Positions 1-20,795 of a stretch of DNA of 21,393 bases are shown here, one piece after another (the stretch's first letter is position 1; every line of letters begins with the position of its first letter). The stretch covers positions 1-21,393 of the IMG/VR virus record IMGVR_UViG_3300010430_000517. One strand, written 5' to 3'. The position numbers and the translations under genes are program-made. Source of the stretch: a virus. The notes under the pieces were generated by a model. It saw nothing but the letters and a program-made list of their open reading frames with translations. It made no database searches and was not told the origin of the DNA.

Positions 1-1
1 G

Positions 2-460
2 CAGGCTGAAGGTTTTGCTGGTCTGCTGGCCTCTATTGAGGATGCTAACCTCCGCTCATCTTCTGCCGAGGATGCGCAGTATATACGCGGTAAGCTCGCG
101 CCTATGGCGCAAGCGTCGGACAGAGCTTCCCGCATAGAATACCTCGCTATAAACCTGGCCATAGCGGAGGCCAAAGCGAGCGATCCGGGTGGGCGTTTGT
201 CAAACATGGACGTACAGGTTCAGGAACGTGCGCAGCAGATAAACACGGCGCTCTCCAGTGGGACTAATATACTCGCGGTTCTTGACGAAATCGATAGACG
301 AGCAGACGCTACTCTATCTCGCATAAAAGCCCGTAGAGGCGAAACGGCGGCCCCGCGAACAGGCGACCCGCAGCGGGTAACGTCGGACGCAGAGTATAAC
401 GCACTGCAGCCGGGGGAGGCGTATATCGCACCGGACGGAAAAGTAAGGGTTAAGCAGTAA
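2..460 (+). CDS. Phage protein, 5'-truncated by the window edge
   Basis: The reading frame is open back to base 2, so the ATG at 104 is probably internal and the true start lies outside the window. About 152 residues are visible. They look largely helical and charged, then finish with a short tail containing DAEYNALQPGEAYIAPDG. Tails of this form (AEYNAL-P-G-Y-PDG-R) are common at the C-termini of phage structural or DNA-transfer proteins, from general knowledge. The stop codon overlaps the next start by one base (TAATG), implying translational coupling with the 946-residue protein. A role as a virion or internal head protein is inferred from this tail and from the neighbour. No catalytic motif is visible. 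Confidence 0.75.
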   Translation, partial: QAEGFAGLLASIEDANLRSSSAEDAQYIRGKLAPMAQASDRASRIEYLAINLAIAEAKASDPGGRLSNMDVQVQERAQQINTALSSGTNILAVLDEIDRRADATLSRIKARRGETAAPRTGDPQRVTSDAEYNALQPGEAYIAPDGKVRVKQ

Positions 461-3300
461 TGGGCTGGAGAGACGACCCCATTTTATCCGCCCCGTGGCA
501 GAATGATCCTGTTGTCGGGCCAGCCCCGCACCAAGCGGAGATCGGCCCCGCTACAGGCCAGGTAACGCCAATCCCCCAAGAGGAAGAAAGCTCTTGGTTA
601 GAGGATCTTTGGCGCTGGGGCACGCTCGGCTCTCAGGGGTTCAACCAGGGCCTTACCCAGTTGGTAGAGTTGCCTTACGACGCGCTGAACAACGCGCCGC
701 GGCTGGGGAATCTGTTCACAGATGAACCTAAATTCGGCAAGATCAGCGAGATGGCGCGCGGTGTCCCTATCCTGGGCGATATGTTCCAGACGGACGACCC
801 TTACATGGGTATGGCCGACAGCGCCGGGCTCACGCATGTCGTCGAGCCGGAAACGAAAGCCGAGCGTATCTTTGAGCGCGGTTTCGAGGAAGTAGGCGCG
901 TCGGCGATACCTGCAGCCGGGGTTATCGGCCGCGCGGGAAGCCTAGCCCGCAAGGGCGTGCCCACCTCTCAAATGAACCTGCTCGACCGGTCCTTCGTCG
1001 CGCCAATAATGAACTCCCCCGGTAAGACCACGGCGATGGAGACGGCTTCCGCTTTCGGCGCCGGCGCTGGCGCAGAGTCAGCTTCCGGTTTAGGCCCGCT
1101 GGCGGAAACCATCGGCGGCATCGCCGGCGGGGTGATAGCCCCGTTCGGGCTGGGAGGGCTAACTAATCTTAAAGGTGCGGTGACAGGCTCACTGGGCGCG
1201 CGAGGCGACGCGGAGTTGGAGGTGGGCAGATTGCTTACGGAAGGCGCCACCGACCCCGACGTACTTCGCCAAAACCGGCTCATGGATATGGTAGAGGAAG
1301 CCGATGTCGCGGGCATAGAACCGACGGTCGGGCAAGCCACGAACGACCCAGGCATAAAGGCGCTCGAATATGGAAGACTCGCCCGCCCAGGGTCGAGCGG
1401 TGTTTTCGCCGCCAAACGCGCGCAGCAGAACCAAAAACTGTCGGAATCACTGAACGAGCATATCCCGGCGCACGCTACAGATGAAGGCATTTTGGGCGAC
1501 ATAGACGCTAACGAACGCATTCGGCAGGCGGAATTCGACGACGCGCAGACGCAGGCTATCCTCGACGCTGAAATGTGGCAGAGAGAAGGCCGCATATCCG
1601 CCGAAGAAGCGCAGGCCATGATTGATGAAGCGCTTGAGTCTTTACCCGGGAACCCGTCGGTCGCCCGCGAAACGGCGTCGAACCAGGCGGCGGATCGCGT
1701 CTTCGGCGACGCGGAAGACAGCGTTTTGAGCCGGGAGCGTGCGCGCCGGAACGAATTGTACGGCCAAGTTCCAGACGACATCATGATCCCGACCGAGCGG
1801 GCGCGTTCCGCGGCGAGAGATATCACGAGCGACGTAGGCCGCGCCGGCGACCCGCCGAAAAGCGTATCGCGGATCGCGAATTACGGCGCGCCGGAACCTG
1901 AGAGTATATATCCCTACGCAGAGATTCCGCCGCCCCCGCCGAAAGCGGTTAAGATGCCGATGCAGCAGATCCGCGATGATCTCACTCAACTGGGCGATGA
2001 CGCGCAGGCGGCGAAGCTGGCGGGGCGCCCGGGCGAAGCTCGCAAGATCGCCGAAGTTAAGAAGGGCGTCCGTGCTGACCTCGCGACAGCGAGTGAGGCG
2101 AACGAGCCCCTTGCGCGCGCCAACCGCAACGACTCCGAGAACTATGCGCCGCGCTTCCGTGAAGGCGTTCCGGCCGACGTGCGCGCCGGCAAGGTGACGA
2201 ACGACAAGTATCTCGGCAAGGCGCTGAAAGACCCGGTTGAAGCCGACCGGCTCGCCATGACGATCGAGGGTGATGAAGCCGCCCAGACGGCGGTTCGAGA
2301 TTGGCTGATCGCCGATCTAGGCTCCGGCGGCGCCGAGAACATGACGCCCGCCCGGGCCGACAAATGGTTGCGGGACAACGGCGCAGTGCTTGAGCGGTTC
2401 CCGGAAGTGCGCGATGAGGTTCAGCGCTTGCGAAACCAACTTGCATCCGGCGGCGACGAGATGGCCCGGGCGCAAGAGATTATCGAAGACGGCGTGCGGC
2501 TCCGCAGAGAGGCGAACGATATGTCTTTGGGAGAGATGTCTGGCGCCACTAAGCTATTCTCGTCGAGAGAAGGATCCGCGGCGCGTATGCGGGCAGTTCT
2601 GGACTCGAACAAGAGCCGGGAAAACTTGAAAGAACTGGTGGAGTTGACCTCCACCAAGGAGCACCTGGACGGGTTCAAAAAGAGCTTTTCCGAAGTTCTC
2701 CTGGGAACGGACGGCAAAGGTGGGATGCTATCCCGCACGGGGGATGGTGTAAACTTCCTGCCGGCCAAAGCGAAAGAATACCTGCAAAAATACAGCGATC
2801 ACATCGATATCCTGTACGCCGACGCGCCGGAGCACGGGGAGAATATCAAGAAGATATTGCAATCCATCGCGGTAATGGATCGCGTCAGTTCGTCTCGCCC
2901 GGCCGGGACGACCGGTACTACCATGTCTTCCACGCCGGAAATTGCGGGTCTGCCGATAACGAGCGTCCTCTCGCGCGCTTTCGCTGCGAAAAGCGGGCGC
3001 ACCAGTTTCCGGTTCATCGGCGGCGAAATGTTTGGGCAGATCGTGGCCCGACAGTTCGGGAAGAACCGCGCGGCGGCCGTGGAGAGTATTCTGGATGACG
3101 CACTCCTGAACCCGGAATTGGCCGCGGCGCTTTCAGCCCGATACACCAAGGAGAACGAGCGCCAAGCTGCGAATATATGGGAAGCGATCCTGACACGAGG
3201 CGCGGCCAGAGCCGGGCGCACCGGGCGGCTGTCTTATGGCGACCAGGAAGAAGATGAGGACGAACCCCTGCGCATCGAAGTGCGCCCGAACCCCGAATAG
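460..3300 (+). CDS. Large probable internal virion / DNA-ejection protein
   Basis: A 946-residue protein with no recognised enzyme motif. An Ala/Gly-rich, weakly hydrophobic stretch at about residues 185-240 could interact with membrane. The middle (about 315-420 and 560-690) is rich in charged helices with coiled-coil character. The acidic C-terminus contains a run of alternating Asp and Glu. A large helical protein with one Gly/Ala-rich segment, placed after structural genes and before lysis genes, is typical of podophage or siphophage internal or ejection proteins. That function is inferred from size, composition and position only. Start: the ATG overlaps the upstream stop (TAATG). A hairpin follows the stop directly. 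Confidence 0.7.
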   Translation: MGWRDDPILSAPWQNDPVVGPAPHQAEIGPATGQVTPIPQEEESSWLEDLWRWGTLGSQGFNQGLTQLVELPYDALNNAPRLGNLFTDEPKFGKISEMARGVPILGDMFQTDDPYMGMADSAGLTHVVEPETKAERIFERGFEEVGASAIPAAGVIGRAGSLARKGVPTSQMNLLDRSFVAPIMNSPGKTTAMETASAFGAGAGAESASGLGPLAETIGGIAGGVIAPFGLGGLTNLKGAVTGSLGARGDAELEVGRLLTEGATDPDVLRQNRLMDMVEEADVAGIEPTVGQATNDPGIKALEYGRLARPGSSGVFAAKRAQQNQKLSESLNEHIPAHATDEGILGDIDANERIRQAEFDDAQTQAILDAEMWQREGRISAEEAQAMIDEALESLPGNPSVARETASNQAADRVFGDAEDSVLSRERARRNELYGQVPDDIMIPTERARSAARDITSDVGRAGDPPKSVSRIANYGAPEPESIYPYAEIPPPPPKAVKMPMQQIRDDLTQLGDDAQAAKLAGRPGEARKIAEVKKGVRADLATASEANEPLARANRNDSENYAPRFREGVPADVRAGKVTNDKYLGKALKDPVEADRLAMTIEGDEAAQTAVRDWLIADLGSGGAENMTPARADKWLRDNGAVLERFPEVRDEVQRLRNQLASGGDEMARAQEIIEDGVRLRREANDMSLGEMSGATKLFSSREGSAARMRAVLDSNKSRENLKELVELTSTKEHLDGFKKSFSEVLLGTDGKGGMLSRTGDGVNFLPAKAKEYLQKYSDHIDILYADAPEHGENIKKILQSIAVMDRVSSSRPAGTTGTTMSSTPEIAGLPITSVLSRAFAAKSGRTSFRFIGGEMFGQIVARQFGKNRAAAVESILDDALLNPELAAALSARYTKENERQAANIWEAILTRGAARAGRTGRLSYGDQEEDEDEPLRIEVRPNPE

Positions 3301-3306
3301 AAAAGA

Positions 3307-3330
3307 CCCGCCGGTTGTTACGCCGGCGGG
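3307..3330 (+). terminator. Hairpin after the virion gene block
   Basis: Perfect 8-bp stem CCCGCCGG / CCGGCGGG with an 8-base loop, starting seven bases after the stop of the 946-residue gene. No T-run follows on the plus strand; on the minus strand the stem is followed by TCTTTT. It may act as an end-of-operon hairpin or as a terminator for leftward transcripts. Confidence 0.55.
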
Positions 3331-3378
3331 CCGAGTTTGAAACGAGAGGGGGTTTACACATGATCGGTGGATCACGAC

Positions 3379-3407
3379 TTGAATATGGGGGATACTTCGG
3401 TTATTGT
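3379..3407 (+). promoter_or_regulatory. Candidate promoter of the lysis cassette
   Basis: TTGAAT (3379-3384) and TATTGT (3402-3407) are separated by exactly 17 bases, each matching the sigma-70 consensus at four of six positions. The -10 element overlaps the palindromic operator at 3403-3418, as expected for repression by blocking polymerase. Confidence 0.4.
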
Positions 3408-3418
3408 CAAGCGACAAT
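3403..3418. promoter_or_regulatory. Palindromic operator O1 (TTGTC-N4-GACAA type)
   Basis: ATTGTC-AAGC-GACAAT, a perfect palindrome with 6-bp arms and a 4-bp spacer. It sits 19 bp upstream of the endolysin start and overlaps the candidate -10. Two further copies of the TTGTC-N4-GACAA core lie at 5616 and 18938. A half-site, ACCCGACA, follows at 3429-3436, next to the endolysin ATG. Confidence 0.65.
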
Positions 3419-3437
3419 TTAACGGAGAACCCGACAA

Positions 3438-4088
3438 ATGGAACAGCCTCGCGGCATTCGCAATCACAACCCCGGGAATATCGAGTACAACGGAACGCCG
3501 TGGCAGGGCCTTGCCGAGCCCAAGTCGGACGGCCGGTTCTGCCGGTTCGAAGGCCCGACATGGGGCATCCGCGCCATCGCCCGAACGCTCATCACCTATC
3601 AAGACAAGCACGGGCTGGAGAATGTCTATCAGATGATCTCCCGGTGGGCGCCGCCGGTCGAAAATAACGTGCAAGCGTATTCCGCCCACGCCGAGAAGGC
3701 GCTCGGCGTCGGGCCGAGCACGCCGATCAACGTTCACCGCTACGCCGTCATGCGGCCGCTGGTGGAGACGATCATCACGCATGAAAACGGCGTGATGCCG
3801 TACAGCGACGCGCAGCTCGACAAAGGTTTGCTGCTCGCCGGTATCGAGGCGCCACAGAAGCCGCTCACGCAGTCACGCACCGTTCGGGGCGGCCAGGTCG
3901 CCGGAACGGCCGGCACCGTCGCCGCGGTGGCTGGCGCCGTCGCGCAGGTTCAGCCCGCGCTGCCGGTCGTGGAGTGGATGCGGGACAATCTCGGCGTTGC
4001 GTTGATTATCCTCGGCGCGGCGGCGGTCGCCGGCGTCGGCTACATGATCTGGGCTCGCCTGGACGACCGGAACAAGGGGTTGCGGTGA
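3438..4088 (+). CDS. Endolysin / virion lysozyme-like protein (P5-type) with C-terminal membrane anchor
   Basis: A 216-residue protein opening with RGIRNHNPGNIEYNG followed by PWQGL and later ISRWAPPVENN. This is the signature of the phage 'structural protein P5' / lysozyme-like family that cleaves peptidoglycan. The catalytic-type domain spans about residues 3-135. An Ala/Gly/Val-rich linker follows, then a hydrophobic segment at about 186-205 and a basic end, suggesting a C-terminal anchor in the inner membrane. It is first in a cassette that contains spanins, so a lysis role is likely. The family also includes virion-associated lysins, so entry rather than exit cannot be excluded. GGAG at 3424-3427 is the ribosome binding site. 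Confidence 0.8.
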   Translation: MEQPRGIRNHNPGNIEYNGTPWQGLAEPKSDGRFCRFEGPTWGIRAIARTLITYQDKHGLENVYQMISRWAPPVENNVQAYSAHAEKALGVGPSTPINVHRYAVMRPLVETIITHENGVMPYSDAQLDKGLLLAGIEAPQKPLTQSRTVRGGQVAGTAGTVAAVAGAVAQVQPALPVVEWMRDNLGVALIILGAAAVAGVGYMIWARLDDRNKGLR

Positions 4089-5615: not shown

Positions 5616-5629
5616 TTGTCGATTGACAA
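5616..5629. promoter_or_regulatory. Palindromic operator O2 upstream of the repressor operon
   Basis: TTGTC-GATT-GACAA, the same arrangement as O1 and O3. A perfect -35 hexamer TTGACA (5623-5628) overlaps its right arm, but no convincing -10 is found (CATATC at 5645-5650 is the best, at 16 bp). Binding here would allow the repressor to control its own operon. Confidence 0.6.
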
Positions 5630-5691: not shown

Positions 5692-6120
5692 ATGCCTAAA
5701 CACCAACCGTTTCACAATGGACCGCCTACGGAAGAACCGGCCTTTTCGCCCGAAGATGTTCGAGCGGAATTCGCACGCCGGCTGAGCGCGTACCTGGACG
5801 AGAGGGGTTGGAACCAGAGTGAACTGTCTCGCCGCGCATCGGAGAGATTGCAAGACGGCGAAGTCAGCCGGGACAACATCAGCAGCTACGTTCGCGGCAA
5901 ATCCTTGCCCGGGCCGCGCTTCCTGGGAGCCATTTGCAGGGCTCTCGGCGTCAAGGCGGAAGACCTGATACCGAAGCGCATGACGCGCCAGGTCGACTCC
6001 CGCAACGCCAAGGTGGAGTTCCGGGCCGTAGGCGACGGCAAAGCGTGGTTGCGCGTCAACCAGGCCGTCTCCTGGGACACCGGTACGAAGATCCTGCAGC
6101 TCTTGCAGGACGAGAAGTAA
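5692..6120 (+). CDS. XRE-family HTH transcriptional regulator, probable phage repressor
   Basis: A 142-residue protein with a Cro/CI-type helix-turn-helix at about residues 27-90. LSAYLDERGWNQSELSRRAS is followed by ISSYVRGKSLPGPRFLGAI and the LGVKAEDL ending typical of XRE domains. The C-terminal part (about 95-142) has no serine-lysine peptidase motif, so RecA-stimulated self-cleavage as in lambda CI is not supported. It is the first gene of an operon with excisionase and integrase, which suggests it controls lysogeny. The three TTGTC-N4-GACAA palindromes are its most likely targets, by inference. The stop overlaps the excisionase start (TAATG). Confidence 0.8.
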   Translation: MPKHQPFHNGPPTEEPAFSPEDVRAEFARRLSAYLDERGWNQSELSRRASERLQDGEVSRDNISSYVRGKSLPGPRFLGAICRALGVKAEDLIPKRMTRQVDSRNAKVEFRAVGDGKAWLRVNQAVSWDTGTKILQLLQDEK

Positions 6121-6410
6121 TGTTCAGCACCGGCCGCGCCGCTACGGCTCTCGGGGTATCCCCTAAGACAATAGAGCGATGGCGCGCGGCCGGGACGATC
6201 AAACCGGCCTATACCACGCCCGGCGGGCACGCACGCTACGAGGAGTCCGAAATATGCCGCGTCCAGAAAGAGGCGTCCCTGATCTCCAGCGGCGCACTAA
6301 CGGATATTTCTATGCCACATGGTACGACGGCGCCAGCCGACGTTCAAAGGCACTCTCCCTTCGTACAAAGTCTGCTACGGAAGCGCAGGCTCGCTTCGCC
6401 GCCTTCCTAG
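6120..6410 (+). CDS. MerR-type HTH excisionase-like protein
   Basis: A 96-residue frame starting at the ATG that overlaps the repressor stop. Residues 1-45 form a MerR/Xis-type winged helix: STGRAATALGVSPKTIERW, then a G-T-I-K turn and PGGHARYEESEI. Such small proteins bend attachment-site DNA and direct the integrase toward excision. Residues 46-96 overlap the integrase gene for 157 bases in another frame and have no recognisable domain, so the functional part is the N-terminal half. The overlap puts the integrase ribosome binding site inside the coding part of this gene. The domain call is fairly sure; the recombination role is inferred from position. Confidence 0.75.
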   Translation: MFSTGRAATALGVSPKTIERWRAAGTIKPAYTTPGGHARYEESEICRVQKEASLISSGALTDISMPHGTTAPADVQRHSPFVQSLLRKRRLASPPS

Positions 6411-7300
6411 CCCAAGGCGCCGACTTCTACGACAACTCGGCCCAGGGGGTCAGCGTCAAGGCGGTTATAGAGAGCTATCGCCGTGGGCACGTTCATCCGA
6501 ATGTGGTCGATACCGAGCGCTTCGAATACGCCGCGACGCAGATCGTCGGGTTCTTCGGCGACACGCCGGTAAGGGATATCGATATCGACGCCGGCGAGCG
6601 GTATATCGAGCACCGGCTGGACGAGGGGATAGCGAAAAGCACCATCAAGCGCGAGATGTCGACGCTCGTCGCCGCGGCGAATTTCTGCGTGAAGCGCCGC
6701 GTGATAAAGCCCGACGAGATCCCGACGATCGAATACCCGAACGTCGATACGAACCGGGAAATATGGCTTTTTAAAGACGAGTTCAGGATTTATCGCGACA
6801 CGAAAAACGCCGATATCCGAGACTTCATAGACACGATGTATTTCACGGGCTCCCGCCGCCGGGCGGTTGAGCAGTTATCGTGGAACCAGGTCGACCTTGG
6901 CAACGGGCTGATCCGGCTCGCCAAAGACGGCGAGAAGAAGACGAAGAAGCGCCGGCCGACGGTGCCGATCGTGCCCGCCCTGCGTGAGATACTGGAGCGG
7001 CGGGAGATGCTGGCGGATACGGATTACGTGTTCGGGCACAGCGGGTCGCGCTACAAGTCGCTGGTGCGCCGGGCGAGCAATGCAGGGCTGCTCTATCTGA
7101 AGGCGCGCGACGGGCGGCCGGAGGGGCGCTTTTGCCCCCATACGATCCGGCACACCCGCGCGACGCATCTGTTGCAGGATGGCGTCGATATCTACGCCGT
7201 GGCGAAGCTGCTGGGCGATACCATCCGAACCGTCGAAACGACGTATGGGCACGCCGCTGCGGGGCTCACCGCGGATGCCGTTTTGAAGAGTGGGTTTTAG
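6254..7300 (+). CDS. int: Tyrosine-type site-specific integrase
   Basis: A 348-residue phage integrase. An arm-binding N-terminal domain (about residues 15-55, GYFYATWYDG) is followed by a SAM-like core-binding domain (about 65-150) and a C-terminal catalytic domain. Catalytic residues visible are Arg201 in FTGSRRR, a Lys in the beta-hairpin near 224-235, His296-x-x-Arg299 in HTIRH, and Tyr331 in TTYGH. The usual second His/Trp position (LGH) reads LGD, with Asp322. The start at 6254 is preferred over the upstream in-frame ATG at 6179 because AGGAG lies at 6241-6245. The gene converges on the methyltransferase gene, overlapping it by four bases. The likely att site is 0.87 kb downstream. Confidence 0.9.
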   Translation: MPRPERGVPDLQRRTNGYFYATWYDGASRRSKALSLRTKSATEAQARFAAFLAQGADFYDNSAQGVSVKAVIESYRRGHVHPNVVDTERFEYAATQIVGFFGDTPVRDIDIDAGERYIEHRLDEGIAKSTIKREMSTLVAAANFCVKRRVIKPDEIPTIEYPNVDTNREIWLFKDEFRIYRDTKNADIRDFIDTMYFTGSRRRAVEQLSWNQVDLGNGLIRLAKDGEKKTKKRRPTVPIVPALREILERREMLADTDYVFGHSGSRYKSLVRRASNAGLLYLKARDGRPEGRFCPHTIRHTRATHLLQDGVDIYAVAKLLGDTIRTVETTYGHAAAGLTADAVLKSGF

Positions 7301-8055
7301 GCGAACATCGCGCTAACCGAAGCGCGAAATACCCTCGTTTTCGCTATCTCGTAATAATTGGCGTCAAGCTCAATGCCGATGAACGCGCGGCCTAATTTGG
7401 CGCACGCTTCGCCAGTCGTGCCGCTGCCCATCGTGAAATCCAGCACCAAATCCCCCGGGCGGCTGTACGTTTTTACGAAGAACTCCATCAGCGCCAAAGG
7501 CTTCTGCGTTGGGTGGAGGTTGGACGTCTGCTTGTCGCTCGGAAAAACCTGAACGCTGCGCGGATAGCGGCTGGTGCTGTCGTACTTCGTCACACCAGAC
7601 TCGTCCCCATAGCACTCGCTGCCGTTTTTGGCCCGGTCAGCGACGGCTGTTTTCCTGGCGTGCCCGTGGGTCATTTGAGGGTCAAAGAAAGGCGCTTTGC
7701 GGTAGAAAACGAGAGCGTTTTCATGAGCTTTCATCGGCATCTTCTTGGCGTTCAGATGGCCGGTAGCGGATGTTTTTTCCCAAATCCACTCGTATTTTAG
7801 CTCAGCAAGATTACTACACCCTAGAACCTTATCGAATGGTGTCTGTGAAAAGAGAACAACTGCGGTATTGTCTTTCCGGGGGAGTGCGGCCCACATACGA
7901 TCTAGATCGATTGGAGAATCCCACCGGCACTGCGTTGTTCCGTATGGCATATCAGCCAGGACAAGATTCGCAGCCGGGAGCCCGCGCAGAACGTCTAGGC
8001 AGTCTGCGTTGTAAAGCGATATATCGCCAAACTGGAGACAAGGTTTTTGTGTCAT
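7297..8055 (-). CDS. DNA methyltransferase, probable N6-adenine, beta class
   Basis: A 252-residue protein with the catalytic motif ADMPYGTTQ (about residues 34-42, a DPPY variant). The AdoMet-binding motif near the C-terminus, DFTMGSGTTGEA (about 206-217), is followed by GIELD. Catalytic motif first and AdoMet motif last is the beta-class order shared by N6-adenine and N4-cytosine enzymes; the GTTxCxWD context favours adenine. No restriction enzyme lies nearby, so it is an orphan, likely for self-protection or regulation. The start at 8055 (MTQKPCLQF) is chosen; 8097 is an alternative. The frame stays open to 8235, but that extension reads antisense through the tRNA fragment and is not credible. 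Confidence 0.85.
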   Translation of the reverse strand: MTQKPCLQFGDISLYNADCLDVLRGLPAANLVLADMPYGTTQCRWDSPIDLDRMWAALPRKDNTAVVLFSQTPFDKVLGCSNLAELKYEWIWEKTSATGHLNAKKMPMKAHENALVFYRKAPFFDPQMTHGHARKTAVADRAKNGSECYGDESGVTKYDSTSRYPRSVQVFPSDKQTSNLHPTQKPLALMEFFVKTYSRPGDLVLDFTMGSGTTGEACAKLGRAFIGIELDANYYEIAKTRVFRASVSAMFA

Positions 8056-8103
8056 TTTTGCAGCGTTACGCGCCAATTCGTGTCGTATATGTCGCATTGT
8101 GTC

Positions 8104-8144
8104 GGAGTTTCTGGCATTTAACTTACTGTTATCGCAGAAACTCC
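8104..8144. repeat. Perfect 10-bp inverted repeat left of the attachment core
   Basis: GGAGTTTCTG (8104-8113) and CAGAAACTCC (8135-8144), 21 bases apart, just upstream of the methyltransferase and left of the tRNA-like core. It could be a pair of integrase or excisionase arm sites, or an operator of the methyltransferase gene. Confidence 0.5.
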
Positions 8145-8148
8145 ATCC

Positions 8149-8163
8149 ACCCGACACCCGACA
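8149..8163 (+). repeat. Tandem ACCCGACA direct repeat and its inverted partner
   Basis: ACCCGACA occurs twice with a 7-base period at 8149-8156 and 8156-8163. CCCGACAA at 8157-8164 is mirrored by TTGTCGGG at 8246-8253, so the pair brackets the tRNA-like core. The arrangement resembles arm sites around a phage attP; the word is also the half-site of the operators. Confidence 0.5.
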
Positions 8164-8166
8164 ATA

Positions 8167-8216
8167 CTGTCTTCGGGAGGCAGGGGCCGCAAGTTCAAAT
8201 CTTGCCACTCCGACCA
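8167..8216 (+). other. attP: Probable attP core: 3' half of a tRNA-Pro(CGG) gene
   Basis: These 50 bases fold as the 3' half of a tRNA. They comprise an anticodon stem CTGTC / GGCAG (one G-U pair) around TTCGGGA (anticodon CGG), a variable loop, T-stem GCAAG / CTTGC with loop TTCAAAT, acceptor strand CACTCCG, discriminator A and encoded CCA (8214-8216). Position 72 is G, implying the C1-G72 start typical of tRNA-Pro. The 5' half (acceptor strand, D-arm) is absent upstream. Tyrosine integrases commonly recombine within the anticodon-to-3'-end half of a tRNA and restore it. Phage genes lie on both sides, so this is attP of a free phage rather than attL or attR. Confidence 0.8.
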
Positions 8217-8238
8217 AACAACCCCTTGAAAACACTAG

Positions 8239-8514
8239 TTAAATGTTGTCGGGCGAGTGTCGAAAACCGTCATCCGACACCGGCTTTGAGTCGCTATGTG
8301 CGGCGCTACGGTAGCTTCTTATCCCCCGAGCCAGTTCCTCGTCGGCGCATTGCAGTTGGTGGCAATCCTCGGCCAACGCGATGTTCTCCAGCATATCAAG
8401 CTGAGAGTTATGTATCGCGAGAAGGTCCATATACATCCGGGCCAATTCGCGTTTCGACTTGTTTTCCAGATACCGCATAGTGATCGGCCCGCCGTGAAAT
8501 TCCACAATGCTCAT
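8239..8514 (-). CDS. Small helical phage protein, unknown function
   Basis: A 91-residue protein, probably helical, with a charged N-terminal half (NKSKRELARMYMDLL) and an Asp/Ser-rich C-terminus. It starts in an ATGA overlap with the DNA polymerase stop, so it is the last gene of the leftward replication operon. It ends 22 bases to the right of the tRNA-like core. No motif is recognised. Its 3' end doubles as repeat-rich att DNA, so its C-terminal sequence may be constrained by DNA function. Confidence 0.65.
   Translation of the reverse strand: MSIVEFHGGPITMRYLENKSKRELARMYMDLLAIHNSQLDMLENIALAEDCHQLQCADEELARGIRSYRSAAHSDSKPVSDDGFRHSPDNI
8257..8280. repeat. Inverted repeat right of the attachment core
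   Basis: GTGTCG (8257-8262) and CGACAC (8275-8280), 12 bases apart, overlapping the 3' end of the 91-residue gene. The arms contain the TGTCG / CGACA word seen elsewhere around the att region. Confidence 0.35.
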
Positions 8515-10577
8515 TTCCTATACCTTTCTTCGCAGAAACCGTCGGCCGCGATCGGCAGCCCCGGCGCCCATTTGGGCTGTTGAACCATGAGTTCCAGAAA
8601 CTTGTCGTAATCCTGATCGGGCCGGATCTCGCCCACGACCTCATCGTGGATCGTCACCGTCACTTCGAAACCTGCGGTTTCGACCCGCAGCATCGCTTCG
8701 GCCATGATGTCGCGCGCGACCGCCTGCGTGATGTTTTCGGCGAATAGCCCGCCATATGCCGATTTGACTGCCCACTTCTTCGTGAAGCTGTCGACGCCCT
8801 CATAGACGATGGCGTCCTCCGTGCCCCACGGCTTCTTCATGGGCTCGATCCGCGGGTACGCATAGGCGATGCACCGGCCGCTCGGCAGCCGGCAGAATAG
8901 GAAAGAGCCGTTCTTGAGATAGACGACGTTCCCGACCGCTACCTTCATGCCGGGGTTCTCGACCGCCAGCCACGCGCCGCTTGCCGGGCGGTAATCACCC
9001 ATCGGCTTGCCTTCAAGCGCCCACCAGTATTCGACCGTCTTTTGGTTGGCGTCGCGCCATGCGAGTTTAACCGTCTCGCCGGCGCCCCACGCCTTTTTCG
9101 TCATGCCGGATCGAACCCCGCGCTCGTCCCAGCTCTTGCGAACCTTCTCTTTGTGCGTATCGGTCGCATTCCGCCAGACGAGATCGAACACCTCTTCGAG
9201 ATCGACGCCGTAATTGGCCGCCATCGCGCCATAGGCCGACGCGCCGCCGCCGAAGCCCAGCGCGAGTTCCGACACCTTGCCCACTTGGCGCTCGGTCGGA
9301 TGATCTTTCTTGTTGATCGGTTTTCCGAAGATGCCGCTCGCCGCTTGGCAGTAGATATCCTCGTCACGGCGAAAGACGCCCAGCTTCGCCTCGTCGCCAG
9401 CGAGCCACGGCAGCACGCGCGCTTCGATCTGGCTGAAATCAGCCGCGATGACCTTCCGGCCCGGCGGCGCGGCGATCAGCCCGCGAATGCTATCGGCGGC
9501 GGCCTGCATCGGGTTTCCGTGCATCATCTCGACGATATCGACGTTCCCGGTCGACATCGCCTTGATGACATCCGGGATGTCGTCGAATACCGGCCTGGGC
9601 AAGTTCTGCAACTGCGCGCCCCGCGCCGCCCAGCGGCCAGTGTTGGCGCCGTGGTACTGCAAGTTGCCGCGCATCCGCCCATCGTCGCAGCGCATCGCCA
9701 GCATCTTGTCGATCTTCGCCGTCGATGATTTCGCGCCCTCTTTCCGCAGATCAAGAGCGCGCCGGCAGCTGGCCGGCAGGTCGAGCGCGAGCAGATCGTC
9801 AAGCTGGTCTTTGGCGAGCGAGCGCGCCGGAACGCCTTGCAGGACGAGCCACGATTTCAACTGCCCCGGGTTCGAGACGGCGCTCACTTCGCCGTCCGTC
9901 ACGTCGTACATTTCTTCGTTCAGCCGTTCGGTTGCGTCTGCAACTACTTTGCGGGCGGCAGGCGCCAATTCCTCATCGATGAAGACGCCGCGATCGTTGA
10001 TGCGTTGATCCATGAACCAGATTTGCTGTTCCAGCGGGCGCAGCGGCAGAAGGCGCTCGGCCAAGGCGCGTTCGACAACCACGTCTTGTTTGCAATAGGC
10101 GTAGAGACGTTCTTTCTTCTCTTCGGTGTCCCACCAAACCGGCTCGTCACCCTCCATGCGACGCGGCTTGCTCATCTGCAGCATGAGTCTATGACCGGGC
10201 TGGTCTTTGCGGTAATCCAGCCCAAGGGCGACCGCCGCGTCGTCTAGCTTCCCGGGGAGCGCCATAGCGTACCCCATCGCCATCGTGCAGCGGAACTTCT
10301 CAAGCGGCGGAACGGGAAACCCGTAGCGCGGCCCGAGAATATGGATGAAATCGAGCCGTTCAAAATTCGCGTTGTGGGCGAATATGAACTCGGCCTCTTT
10401 GATCGCGTGTTTGATGTCGCGATCGTCCAGATCCGGGTGCCACAACTTCACCTCTTCGTCATCGGCGCCGAAGGCGGCGCACCAGTTATCGGTGTGCCGG
10501 TCTTCGAAATACTTGTAGGCGCCTATTTTCACCAAATCGAGGACGGCCATCGTCTCGACATCGAAGTGGAGGTGCAT
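8511..10577 (-). CDS. Family A DNA polymerase with 3'-5' proofreading exonuclease
   Basis: A 688-residue phage replicative polymerase of the PolA family. The exonuclease domain shows ExoI D6-V-E8, ExoII HNANFE (68-73) and ExoIII YCKQDV (161-166). The polymerase domain shows motif A ADFSQIEAR with catalytic Asp380, motif B with Arg430 and Lys434 before a GFGGG turn, and motif C His-Asp-Glu (644-646). There is no 5'-3' exonuclease domain, as usual for phage polymerases of this size. All catalytic residues are present. The start overlaps the stop of the upstream small gene by one base (TGATG). It lies near the end of the leftward operon encoding helicase, nuclease and SSB-like protein. Confidence 0.95.
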   Translation of the reverse strand: MHLHFDVETMAVLDLVKIGAYKYFEDRHTDNWCAAFGADDEEVKLWHPDLDDRDIKHAIKEAEFIFAHNANFERLDFIHILGPRYGFPVPPLEKFRCTMAMGYAMALPGKLDDAAVALGLDYRKDQPGHRLMLQMSKPRRMEGDEPVWWDTEEKKERLYAYCKQDVVVERALAERLLPLRPLEQQIWFMDQRINDRGVFIDEELAPAARKVVADATERLNEEMYDVTDGEVSAVSNPGQLKSWLVLQGVPARSLAKDQLDDLLALDLPASCRRALDLRKEGAKSSTAKIDKMLAMRCDDGRMRGNLQYHGANTGRWAARGAQLQNLPRPVFDDIPDVIKAMSTGNVDIVEMMHGNPMQAAADSIRGLIAAPPGRKVIAADFSQIEARVLPWLAGDEAKLGVFRRDEDIYCQAASGIFGKPINKKDHPTERQVGKVSELALGFGGGASAYGAMAANYGVDLEEVFDLVWRNATDTHKEKVRKSWDERGVRSGMTKKAWGAGETVKLAWRDANQKTVEYWWALEGKPMGDYRPASGAWLAVENPGMKVAVGNVVYLKNGSFLFCRLPSGRCIAYAYPRIEPMKKPWGTEDAIVYEGVDSFTKKWAVKSAYGGLFAENITQAVARDIMAEAMLRVETAGFEVTVTIHDEVVGEIRPDQDYDKFLELMVQQPKWAPGLPIAADGFCEERYRK

Positions 10578-11037: not shown

Positions 11038-11310
11038 TCAGTCCGACAAAAGTTCCTTCATCACCTCGTTCACGCGGTCTTCGTAGACGGCGATCAACGA
11101 GTCCTCTTCGGCGAGTTCCGCCTTATCGCGCTTCCGGCGAGCAATCACCTTCCGCATGATCTTCACGTCAAACCCGGCGGCCTTCGCTTCTGCGAAAACC
11201 TCCTTCCGGTCGTCTTTCAGCGCGTCAACTTGGTCGTCGATATTCTCGACACGCTGAACGAACTTGACCAGATCGGCGCCGGGTACGCTGTTGTGACCGA
11301 CGGTGGTCAT
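11038..11310 (-). CDS. DUF2312 / GapR-like DNA-binding protein
   Basis: A 90-residue protein matching the DUF2312 pattern. It has a coiled-coil helix FVQRVENIDDQVDALKDDRK, then EVFAEAKAAGFDVKIMRKVI and a basic segment, then a second acidic helix. GapR of Caulobacter is the characterised member: it forms a clamp on overtwisted, AT-rich DNA ahead of replication and stimulates type II topoisomerases. This copy is slightly longer at its N-terminus (TTVGHNSVPG). The start at 11310 is fixed by a four-base ATGA overlap with the upstream stop; the frame is open 14 codons further. In this operon it may relieve supercoiling during phage replication or displace host GapR, by inference. Confidence 0.85.
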   Translation of the reverse strand: MTTVGHNSVPGADLVKFVQRVENIDDQVDALKDDRKEVFAEAKAAGFDVKIMRKVIARRKRDKAELAEEDSLIAVYEDRVNEVMKELLSD

Positions 11311-17472: not shown

Positions 17473-17712
17473 CTAGTACGGGATGTCCCAACTGGGCATG
17501 ACCTTCGTGATGTCCGCGCCCTTGTTCCTTCGTTTCGGCTTCTCGCCCTTTTTGCGAGGATCGGTGTATCCGCAAACTCGGCAGGTCTGTCCCGGCCAAA
17601 GCCGCGTGGCGTTCCGGTTGGGTGGGCACCCGGGGCACTCGATTGTGTGCTTGTCCCGTTCCTTTCGACGGTGCTCTTTCGCGTCCCGCCAGTAGTCGCC
17701 TACATCACCCAT
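17473..17712 (-). CDS. Small basic zinc-ribbon protein
   Basis: A 79-residue basic protein with two CxxC pairs, CPGC and CRVC, 16 residues apart, the spacing of a zinc ribbon. Lys/Arg-rich flanks follow (RKKGEKPKRRNKG). It may bind nucleic acid. It is preceded by AGGAG that belongs to the 28-bp repeat described at 17718. Confidence 0.65.
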   Translation of the reverse strand: MGDVGDYWRDAKEHRRKERDKHTIECPGCPPNRNATRLWPGQTCRVCGYTDPRKKGEKPKRRNKGADITKVMPSWDIPY

Positions 17713-17717
17713 CGTCT

Positions 17718-17745
17718 TCTCCTATTCCGCAGCCGCGCGGGCTAG
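17718..17745 (-). repeat. Gene-end / ribosome-binding-site repeat, copy 1
   Basis: A 28-bp sequence identical to 18045-18072. On the minus strand it encodes the last residues LARAAAE and stop of the upstream gene, and its TAGGAG contains the ribosome binding site of the next gene. A 22-bp part also occurs on the plus strand at 20774-20795. Confidence 0.85.
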
Positions 17746-18039
17746 CTTGTGCATCCGGCGAACGCACGAAAGACAAAGGTTGAACGTTCTGCCTAAGTCA
17801 CTATCGCCGCACTCAATCGAGTCCCCTATGGTGCGGTCACATTCATCGCATGTGCCGTGCGTCCAGGATTTGTTCCCGATAATCCGATCTACTTCGTCGG
17901 GGTCTGGGTTGGGTGGAAGGGCGTCCAGTTGTTCGCCGATAACGGCCTTTTCCGGGAACCGATCATACTTGCCGAAATATTGGCGTGCCCATCTGGACGC
18001 CGCCACATCCGCTAGTTCCTGCCGGGTGGTTAGCTTCAT
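17722..18039 (-). CDS. Zinc-finger-like phage protein
   Basis: A 105-residue protein. The N-terminal half is helical (RQELADVAASRWARQYFGKYDRF-like). Residues about 62-92 carry CDEC, a single Cys and CLSC, the layout of a treble-clef or DksA-like zinc finger. It ends in LARAAAE, encoded by the 28-bp repeat. Function unknown. Confidence 0.65.
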   Translation of the reverse strand: MKLTTRQELADVAASRWARQYFGKYDRFPEKAVIGEQLDALPPNPDPDEVDRIIGNKSWTHGTCDECDRTIGDSIECGDSDLGRTFNLCLSCVRRMHKLARAAAE

Positions 18040-18044
18040 CGTTC

Positions 18045-18072
18045 TCTCCTATTCCGCAGCCGCGCGGGCTAG
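18045..18072 (-). repeat. Gene-end / ribosome-binding-site repeat, copy 2, attached to a gene remnant
   Basis: Identical to 17718-17745, 327 bp away. Here the coding part (LENLARAAAE and stop) has no gene in front of it: the frame is stopped by the TAA of the HD-domain gene a few codons upstream. It looks like the leftover 3' end of a deleted or duplicated gene, kept as the ribosome binding site of the 105-residue gene. Confidence 0.8.
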
Positions 18073-18087
18073 ATTTTCCAGGCCATC

Positions 18088-18915: not shown

Positions 18916-18944
18916 TTGTAAACCAGCACAGCTTACCTTGTCAA
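18916..18944 (-). promoter_or_regulatory. Candidate leftward early promoter
   Basis: A perfect -35 TTGACA reads leftward at 18944-18939, overlapping the left part of operator O3. The downstream -10 is unclear (TTACAA at 18921-18916 is poor). The call rests on the -35, the operator and the start of a gene-dense leftward operon. Confidence 0.35.
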
Positions 18945-18951
18945 CCGACAA
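18938..18951. promoter_or_regulatory. Palindromic operator O3 in the divergent early region
   Basis: TTGTC-AACC-GACAA, the third copy of the palindrome, lying between the leftward and rightward early transcription units and overlapping the leftward -35. Half-sites flank it: TGTCGGGT at 18908-18915 and ACCCGACA at 18963-18970. Confidence 0.65.
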
Positions 18952-20203: not shown

Positions 20204-20792
20204 TGGCATCAAAGCCCTACTTATCGGCGCCGAACCGGCTGGCGAAGGTGACGCCCTAGTGACCTTCCGCGTCCCTGCCGATGCGCGGCTTTACACCGGG
20301 GAATACCTTCTGGTGCAGGCGTTCGCGGTGGAACTGGCGAAGGCGCAATCCGTGGAATGCTCACGACAGCCCGAACCCGCCGCCGATCCGCAGGAAACCG
20401 CCGATCCTGGCCAGGGAATTGACATACCTGAGACTGTCAAATCGTCGGACGTGTCAGACGCACGGGAAACTAGGAGGTTGAGGCCCATAGAAAAGGCCGC
20501 AATCGCAAGCCTTTTGTACTTACCGGACACCCCTATCGACACTGCCAAAACCGCTATCCCGGAACCGGTCCCGGCGCGTACCTTGGAGGGTGATTCCGAC
20601 CCCTCCCATAACGGTACGCAATTGGCGGAGACCGTGACGCTGCCCGTGAAGCCGACACAGGCGATGCTGAATGCAGCAATCGACGTGGACGCATTCAAGC
20701 TGGGCGACATTAGCCCGCTCGGCTTTCGGTGTAGTCCCCAACAACTTTTCGAACAGTGCTACGCGGCCATGATCCGCGCGGCTGCGGAATAG
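20196..20792 (+). CDS. Phage protein with disordered middle, unknown
   Basis: A 198-residue protein starting at 20196, overlapping the previous gene by eight bases, with AGAGGA nine bases upstream. Residues 1-55 look folded, the middle (about 58-135) is rich in Pro, Glu, Asp and Thr and probably disordered. The C-terminal segment (VKPTQAMLNAA, GFRCSPQQLFEQCYAAMI) is a recurrent phage C-terminal module. Its last codons (RAAAE and stop) lie in the 22-bp copy of the gene-end repeat. The frame is open further upstream, but a start there would sit inside the neighbour. Confidence 0.65.
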   Translation: MVNGIKALLIGAEPAGEGDALVTFRVPADARLYTGEYLLVQAFAVELAKAQSVECSRQPEPAADPQETADPGQGIDIPETVKSSDVSDARETRRLRPIEKAAIASLLYLPDTPIDTAKTAIPEPVPARTLEGDSDPSHNGTQLAETVTLPVKPTQAMLNAAIDVDAFKLGDISPLGFRCSPQQLFEQCYAAMIRAAAE

Positions 20793-20795
20793 GAG
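20774..20795 (+). repeat. Gene-end / ribosome-binding-site repeat, copy 3
   Basis: 22 bp identical to part of the 28-bp repeats at 17718 and 18045 but on the other strand. Like them it encodes the C-terminal RAAAE and stop of one gene and supplies the TAGGAG ribosome binding site of the next. Confidence 0.8.

Follow-up and report, generated by a model that had tools for sequence, protein, structure and literature searches.

The window analyzed here, a 21,393-base IMG/VR virus record, carries the 3′ half of a tRNA-Pro(CGG) gene, and this half very probably serves as attP, the attachment site by which a temperate, RHph_N65-like phage would enter the chromosome of an alphaproteobacterial host. 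The first-pass annotation had placed the half at 8167-8216 and read it as a likely attP and host integration site. The first point is confirmed and the second supported here: the exact identity to host genes is one base longer than described (8166-8216, 51 bp), an integrase lies nearby, phage genes occur on both flanks, and an in silico exchange places a complete tRNA at attL. The features are summarized in Table 1.

Table 1. Features around the tRNA half of the window (coordinates as window positions).
Feature	Position	Strand	Evidence or remark
Cro/C1-type helix-turn-helix protein, candidate lysogeny repressor	5692..6120	+	Pfam HTH_31 2.2e-8
Excisionase-like HTH_17/MerR protein, overlaps integrase start	6120..6410	+	phrog_66 1.7e-7, HTH_17 1e-8
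Tyrosine integrase	6254..7300	+	Pfam Phage_integrase 2e-17; phrog_1 1.5e-44; R, K, HxxR, Y motif in alignment
DNA methyltransferase	7297..8097	-	Pfam N6_N4_Mtase 1.4e-26; phrog_67 6.7e-68; start 8097 or 8055
Candidate P arm	8080..8163	.	TGTCG at 8081, 8090, 8100; CGACA at 8152, 8159
Core region by position	8164..8186	+	Equivalent of the 23-bp annotated core of phage 16-3, 8 + 7 + 8 bp round the loop
attP/attB identity block	8166..8216	+	nt 27-77, anticodon stem to CCA, of tRNA-Pro(CGG); 51-bp exact identity in L002, L003, L004
Anticodon loop TTCGGGA, predicted 7-bp strand-exchange (overlap) region	8172..8178	+	Inferred from 16-3 core, 12 contigs, review
Candidate P′ arm	8237..8280	.	TGTCG at 8247, 8258; CGACA at 8275
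91-residue ORF, directly right of attP	8239..8514	-	No family match
Family A DNA polymerase, phage replication module	8511..10577	-	Pfam DNA_pol_A 5e-21; phrog_17 2.4e-107

In the genome collection, an exact 45-base probe from the half matched three stretches. ARAGORN identified a complete tRNA-Pro(cgg) in all of them, and the reversed pattern, run as a control, had no matches in the genome scans; a chance match is thereby excluded. The carriers are Hwanghaeella grinnelliae (Rhodospirillales) and two uncultured alphaproteobacterial MAGs, so that the search for a host gene with the same 3′ half, proposed as a check, was successful. The identity covers 51 bases in every host stretch, with its left edge at the same base in each, and the source tRNA has a length of 77 nt. 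Read by hand, the half contains an anticodon stem CTGTC/GGCAG with one T-G pair around the loop TTCGGGA, followed on the 3′ side by a T arm (GCAAG/CTTGC), the acceptor strand CACTCCG, an A and the CCA. The description of the half as intact in fold thus holds for the stem, loop and T arm seen by eye, but not for the computed fold, where the isolated 50-mer did not outperform its shuffled versions (z -0.62) and the anticodon arm was missing from the minimum-energy structure. Since the fold is unremarkable and Rfam at E≤1 gave no match on the tRNA half region, the tRNA was identified by sequence identity and not by folding energy. A working half-tRNA RNA was rejected on the grounds that the fold does not exceed that of shuffles. 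The 5′ half is missing, as previously noted: ARAGORN found no complete tRNA in the window, and the 5′ half of the host tRNA-Pro gave no matches there at ≤3 mismatches, which leaves no D-arm or 5′ acceptor strand adjacent to the half and rules out a permuted or split tRNA gene.

The half lies between two sets of phage genes. To its left, endolysin-like, Rz-like, C1/Cro-type HTH, excisionase-like HTH_17 and tyrosine integrase genes are located on the plus strand, followed by a DNA methyltransferase gene on the minus strand; to its right, the minus strand encodes the 91-residue ORF, DNA polymerase A, a ssDNA-binding protein, an exonuclease, a helicase, a RuvC-like resolvase, a dNMP kinase and a dNMP phosphatase. 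The Pfam and PHROG matches on the two sides confirm the earlier observation of a nearby integrase with phage genes on both sides, and the genes identified on either side are those of a phage rather than a host. With phage DNA on both flanks, the arrangement is therefore that of an attP, neither attL nor attR. The position of the methyltransferase gene between the integrase and the attP counts against this assignment. At the attR of an integrated prophage, with phage DNA to the left and host DNA to the right, a 3′ half would likewise stand alone and have the integrase to its left, as it does in two cellular loci described below (L075 and L076). This reading is nevertheless very unlikely here, as the right-hand DNA encodes the phage replication and nucleotide-metabolism proteins listed above, and as the integrase is found together with polymerase, exonuclease and helicase in Rhizobium phage RHph_N65 and close to the polymerase in four related contigs (L105, L106, L107, and L113). 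The contig is in the unintegrated arrangement, compatible with a virion or an excised circle. Phage genes on both sides most simply suggest a free phage genome, excised or packaged, as the first-pass annotation had it. The contig may also derive from a tandem prophage, or from a prophage integrated elsewhere, and virion, excised circle and tandem prophage are all compatible with the sequence.

A second IMG/VR contig, G046 (L071), is 100% identical to window positions 1-3931, stops within the endolysin-like gene and has genes for terminase, portal and capsid proteins farther upstream, which suggests that the same phage was assembled twice. The integrase start was placed from the alignment to relatives. 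For the methyltransferase, a longer, 312-aa ORF extending to 8235 was rejected as a probable false start because its first residues are the antisense of the half, and the peptide of the long frame (8098-8235, minus strand), VGVARFELAAPASRRQ, is probably never made. In the phage collection, the window has a single near match, a methylase of Vibrio phage 11895-B1, which shares 80.6% DNA identity with part of the methyltransferase gene (7718-7840). Just upstream of the likely methyltransferase start, two 10-bp arms (8104-8113/8135-8144) form a perfect inverted repeat separated by 21 nt. Promoter and terminator scans of 7250-8550 returned 0 and 1 sites, respectively, not above shuffles. Elsewhere in the window, the palindrome TTGTCNNNNGACAA occurs in exactly three copies, ahead of the lysis genes (3404-3417), ahead of the HTH gene (5616-5629) and near the right-hand early region (18938-18951); two of them belong to a 35-nt repeat, and the palindromes are possible repressor operators. 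A 44-nt repeat is present in two copies that are 89% identical and ~330 bp apart (17710-17753 and 18037-18080), with a 22-nt perfect inverted copy ~2.7-3 kb off (20774-20795).

The crossover zone was placed in the anticodon loop on three grounds: the annotated 23-bp core of phage 16-3 has this loop of tRNA-Pro(CGG) at its centre, the identity in 12 other viral contigs begins on the 5′ side of the anticodon stem, and a review, in its available text, fits the 7-bp loop and the stems of tRNA genes to the overlap and core organization of such sites (PMC8371274). The exact cut positions within the loop are predicted by analogy. When an exchange at the start of the anticodon loop was made in silico between the host stretch L003 and the phage, ARAGORN found a tRNA-Pro(cgg) in attB and attL and no tRNA in attP or attR. 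The orientation of the half leads to the same layout, and the expectation that the restored tRNA would adjoin the 91-residue gene and polymerase side, with the integrase at the far end, is upheld.

The integrase alignment contains the R, K, HxxR and Y residues of the tyrosine integrase catalytic motif, with a D at the position where H or W is usual; LGD is found at this position also in the relatives L105, L106, L107, L113, and L116. On both sides of the core, TGTCG/CGACA repeats are candidate arm-type integrase sites. The stretch 8080-8279 holds eight copies, where 200 bp contain 0.81 on average; once many 5-mers and windows were counted in an all-5-mer scan, this cluster was the second most extreme of 1060 windows, and it is thus suggestive only. 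In addition, AGTTAAATG at 8237-8245, in the candidate P′ arm, is inverted relative to 8115-8123, and four perfect inverted 8-mers match across the core, where a mean of 0.29 was obtained and at least four occurred in 0.57% of 2115 placements.

The inverted matches also bear on a chimeric assembly, in which two molecules would have been joined at the 3′ half. Such halves are present in many genomes and phages, yet the repeats match across the core, related phages keep integrase, half and polymerase close together, and metagenome assemblers are seldom misled by repeats as short as 51 bp, all of which make a chimera highly improbable. If the half is the attP, the phage tyrosine integrase would bind the short repeats of the two arms flanking the core and pair the attP with the host tRNA-Pro(CGG) gene. 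Strands would be exchanged across the 7 bp of the anticodon loop, and the two stem halves beside it would act as inverted core-type sites. The host 5′ half and the phage-borne 3′ half would then form a working tRNA beside the 91-residue and polymerase end (attL), while the host's own 3′ half would be displaced to the methyltransferase and integrase end (attR), and the Xis-like protein would direct excision.

The same tRNA gene is used by other elements. The exact 45-mer gave no match in viral contigs, and a degenerate probe matched 12 IMG/VR viral contigs at 13 sites, comprising 12 halves and one complete gene (in L096). All 12 halves break off in the anticodon arm, their left edges of identity, judged by eye, lying 0-6 nt before the first base of the probe; halves broken further to the right would be missed, because the probe starts in the anticodon stem. 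Homologues of the window integrase were identified in eight of the 12 (phmmer E 1e-25 to 1e-5), upstream of the half in seven and downstream in L091, while the other four showed no homologous integrase at E<0.01 within the available stretch. Apart from the integrase and one phosphatase match in L096, no genes in common with the window phage were found in the available stretches of the 12 contigs. In L096, the half (10191-10236) lies beside the integrase, and the complete tRNA-Pro(CGG) (11076-11121) follows 885 bp on in the same direction. That the half is what remains of a tRNA gene once carried by a phage, and plays no part in integration, is scarcely credible: many phages do carry tRNA genes, including tRNA-Pro, but the retained bases match living host genes exactly, and these 12 contigs, eight of them with an integrase homologue, likewise break at the anticodon arm.

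Among 385 cellular genomes (class sample), 74 carry a tRNA-Pro(CGG) within two mismatches of the probe. Six sites from the three genomes with two matches comprised four complete genes and two halves, the latter being attR-like, integrase-bearing halves in cellular genomes that also hold an intact gene (L075 and L076). In L075 the integrase is located left of the half and the right-hand genes appear by eye to be ordinary chromosomal genes, and in L076 the C-terminal end of an integrase-like ORF ends ~70 bp from the half. Of the prophages with related integrases that had been expected to end at this tRNA, mobile elements ending there were thus found, but no prophage of this phage. The nearest cellular integrases (27-39% identity) were at nine places in eight of the 385 genomes, near tRNA-Gly, tRNA-Arg, tRNA-Thr or no tRNA, with tRNA-Pro at none of the nine. 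Relatives of the capsid protein were found in none of 372 alphaproteobacterial genomes, in a search run without a positive control, and related-locus searches gave 17 pattern matches and no relatives with the integrase alone and no matches with polA alone. As no integrated copy of the phage was found, we infer integration, as we do the actual recombination, the arm sites and the host genus.

Comparison with known systems places the attP among familiar ones. Phage 16-3 of Rhizobium/Sinorhizobium (DQ500118) carries a half tRNA-Pro(CGG) from the anticodon arm to the CCA and a 23-bp core centred on the loop TTCGGGA, and its int and xis overlap, as in the window; it differs in having an integrase that is 25% identical and located on the P′ side of the half, and in an annotated HK97-family capsid. 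The record of the Sinorhizobium prophage phi3LM21 (MF614628) likewise annotates an attachment site in tRNA-Pro(CGG), whereas its integrase is 26% identical over 291 aa and on the P′ side, and tail tape measure and minor tail genes are annotated. In the available text of one paper, phi3LM21 is reported as integrated at tRNA-Pro(CGG), restoring the gene, and 16-3 is tabled at the same tRNA (PMC5537653). The Islander paper, in the part available, gives 2083 of 3919 islands at the anticodon subsite (PMC4383910). Marine metagenomic phages, as described in the accessible part of another study, combine an integrase with an exact host tRNA match at attP and support the same host-prediction argument, with other tRNAs and hosts than those of the window (PMC3861242). 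The authors there warn that assignment of a host from a tRNA match is only broad, and the alphaproteobacterial host predicted here from the tRNA fragment is likewise only a broad prediction.

RHph_N65 (MN988536) belongs to the same broad lineage as the window phage. Its capsid and polymerase are each 37% identical, and homologues of capsid, tail, polymerase, exonuclease, helicase, repressor and integrase were identified at 28-38% identity (E 1e-9 to 1e-130). It also shares the order of integrase, one gene and tRNA half. Unlike the window, its half is a tRNA-Thr(CGT), exact over 46 nt and not annotated in the record, and the intervening gene is an HNH endonuclease on the int strand. This type of Thr half is exact in Sinorhizobium records and gave no match in the 385 genomes at ≤2 mismatches.

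Relatives of the polymerase gene were collected as the best 80 of 458 confirmed in viral contigs together with four phage records, and ten of these 84 loci showed an integrase match. A tRNA half was found ≤2 kb downstream of the integrase in four of the ten, namely Arg(CCG) in L106, Glu(TTC) in L113, Glu(CTC) in L105 and Thr(CGT) in L034, and the pattern search gave no half within that distance in the other six, including the close L107 and L116. One of the six, Microcystis phage Mae-Yong1326-1 (L104), has a Thr(GGT)-like half at ~15525, ~12 kb from its integrase. The Arg half of L106 equals Methylobacterium tRNA-Arg(CCG) over 49 exact bases, and the Glu halves of L105 and L113 were assigned by 84-88% matches to complete tRNA-Glu genes, plus their anticodons. 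Half-like structures outside complete tRNAs numbered ten in the real loci (some poor); when each locus was shuffled once by mononucleotides, none appeared. On a Methylocystis rosea plasmid (L186), a 3′ half resembling tRNA-Glu was also seen that is not part of a complete tRNA. Trees of int and polA (nine rows) agree on the pairs L105+L106 (supports 94/91 for int and 96/97 for polA) and L107+L113 (90/93 and 99/99), with the window's own place open in both; the paired L105 and L106 yet carry Glu(CTC)-like and Arg(CCG) halves. These hints of retargeting within the lineage come from a small sample in which L107 and L116 showed no half. It is conceivable, and tentatively proposed, that this is one lineage of alphaproteobacterial phages whose members kept the integrase with the replication genes by descent and yet moved among unrelated host tRNA genes (Pro CGG, Arg CCG, Glu TTC and Glu CTC, and, in a relative farther off, Thr CGT), with the cut invariably in the anticodon arm. 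What the integrase recognizes would in that case be the shape of the arm together with a changeable core that is replaced at each retargeting.

The attP described here is ordinary but clean, a known kind of docking site in a new phage. It marks an uncultured phage as temperate, points to the likely class of its host and to its site of integration, and predicts where the crossover would lie. Together with the other elements, it identifies tRNA-Pro(CGG) as a docking gene common to several otherwise unrelated alphaproteobacterial phages, and the related phages with different tRNA halves offer a natural series on how a tyrosine integrase changes its target.
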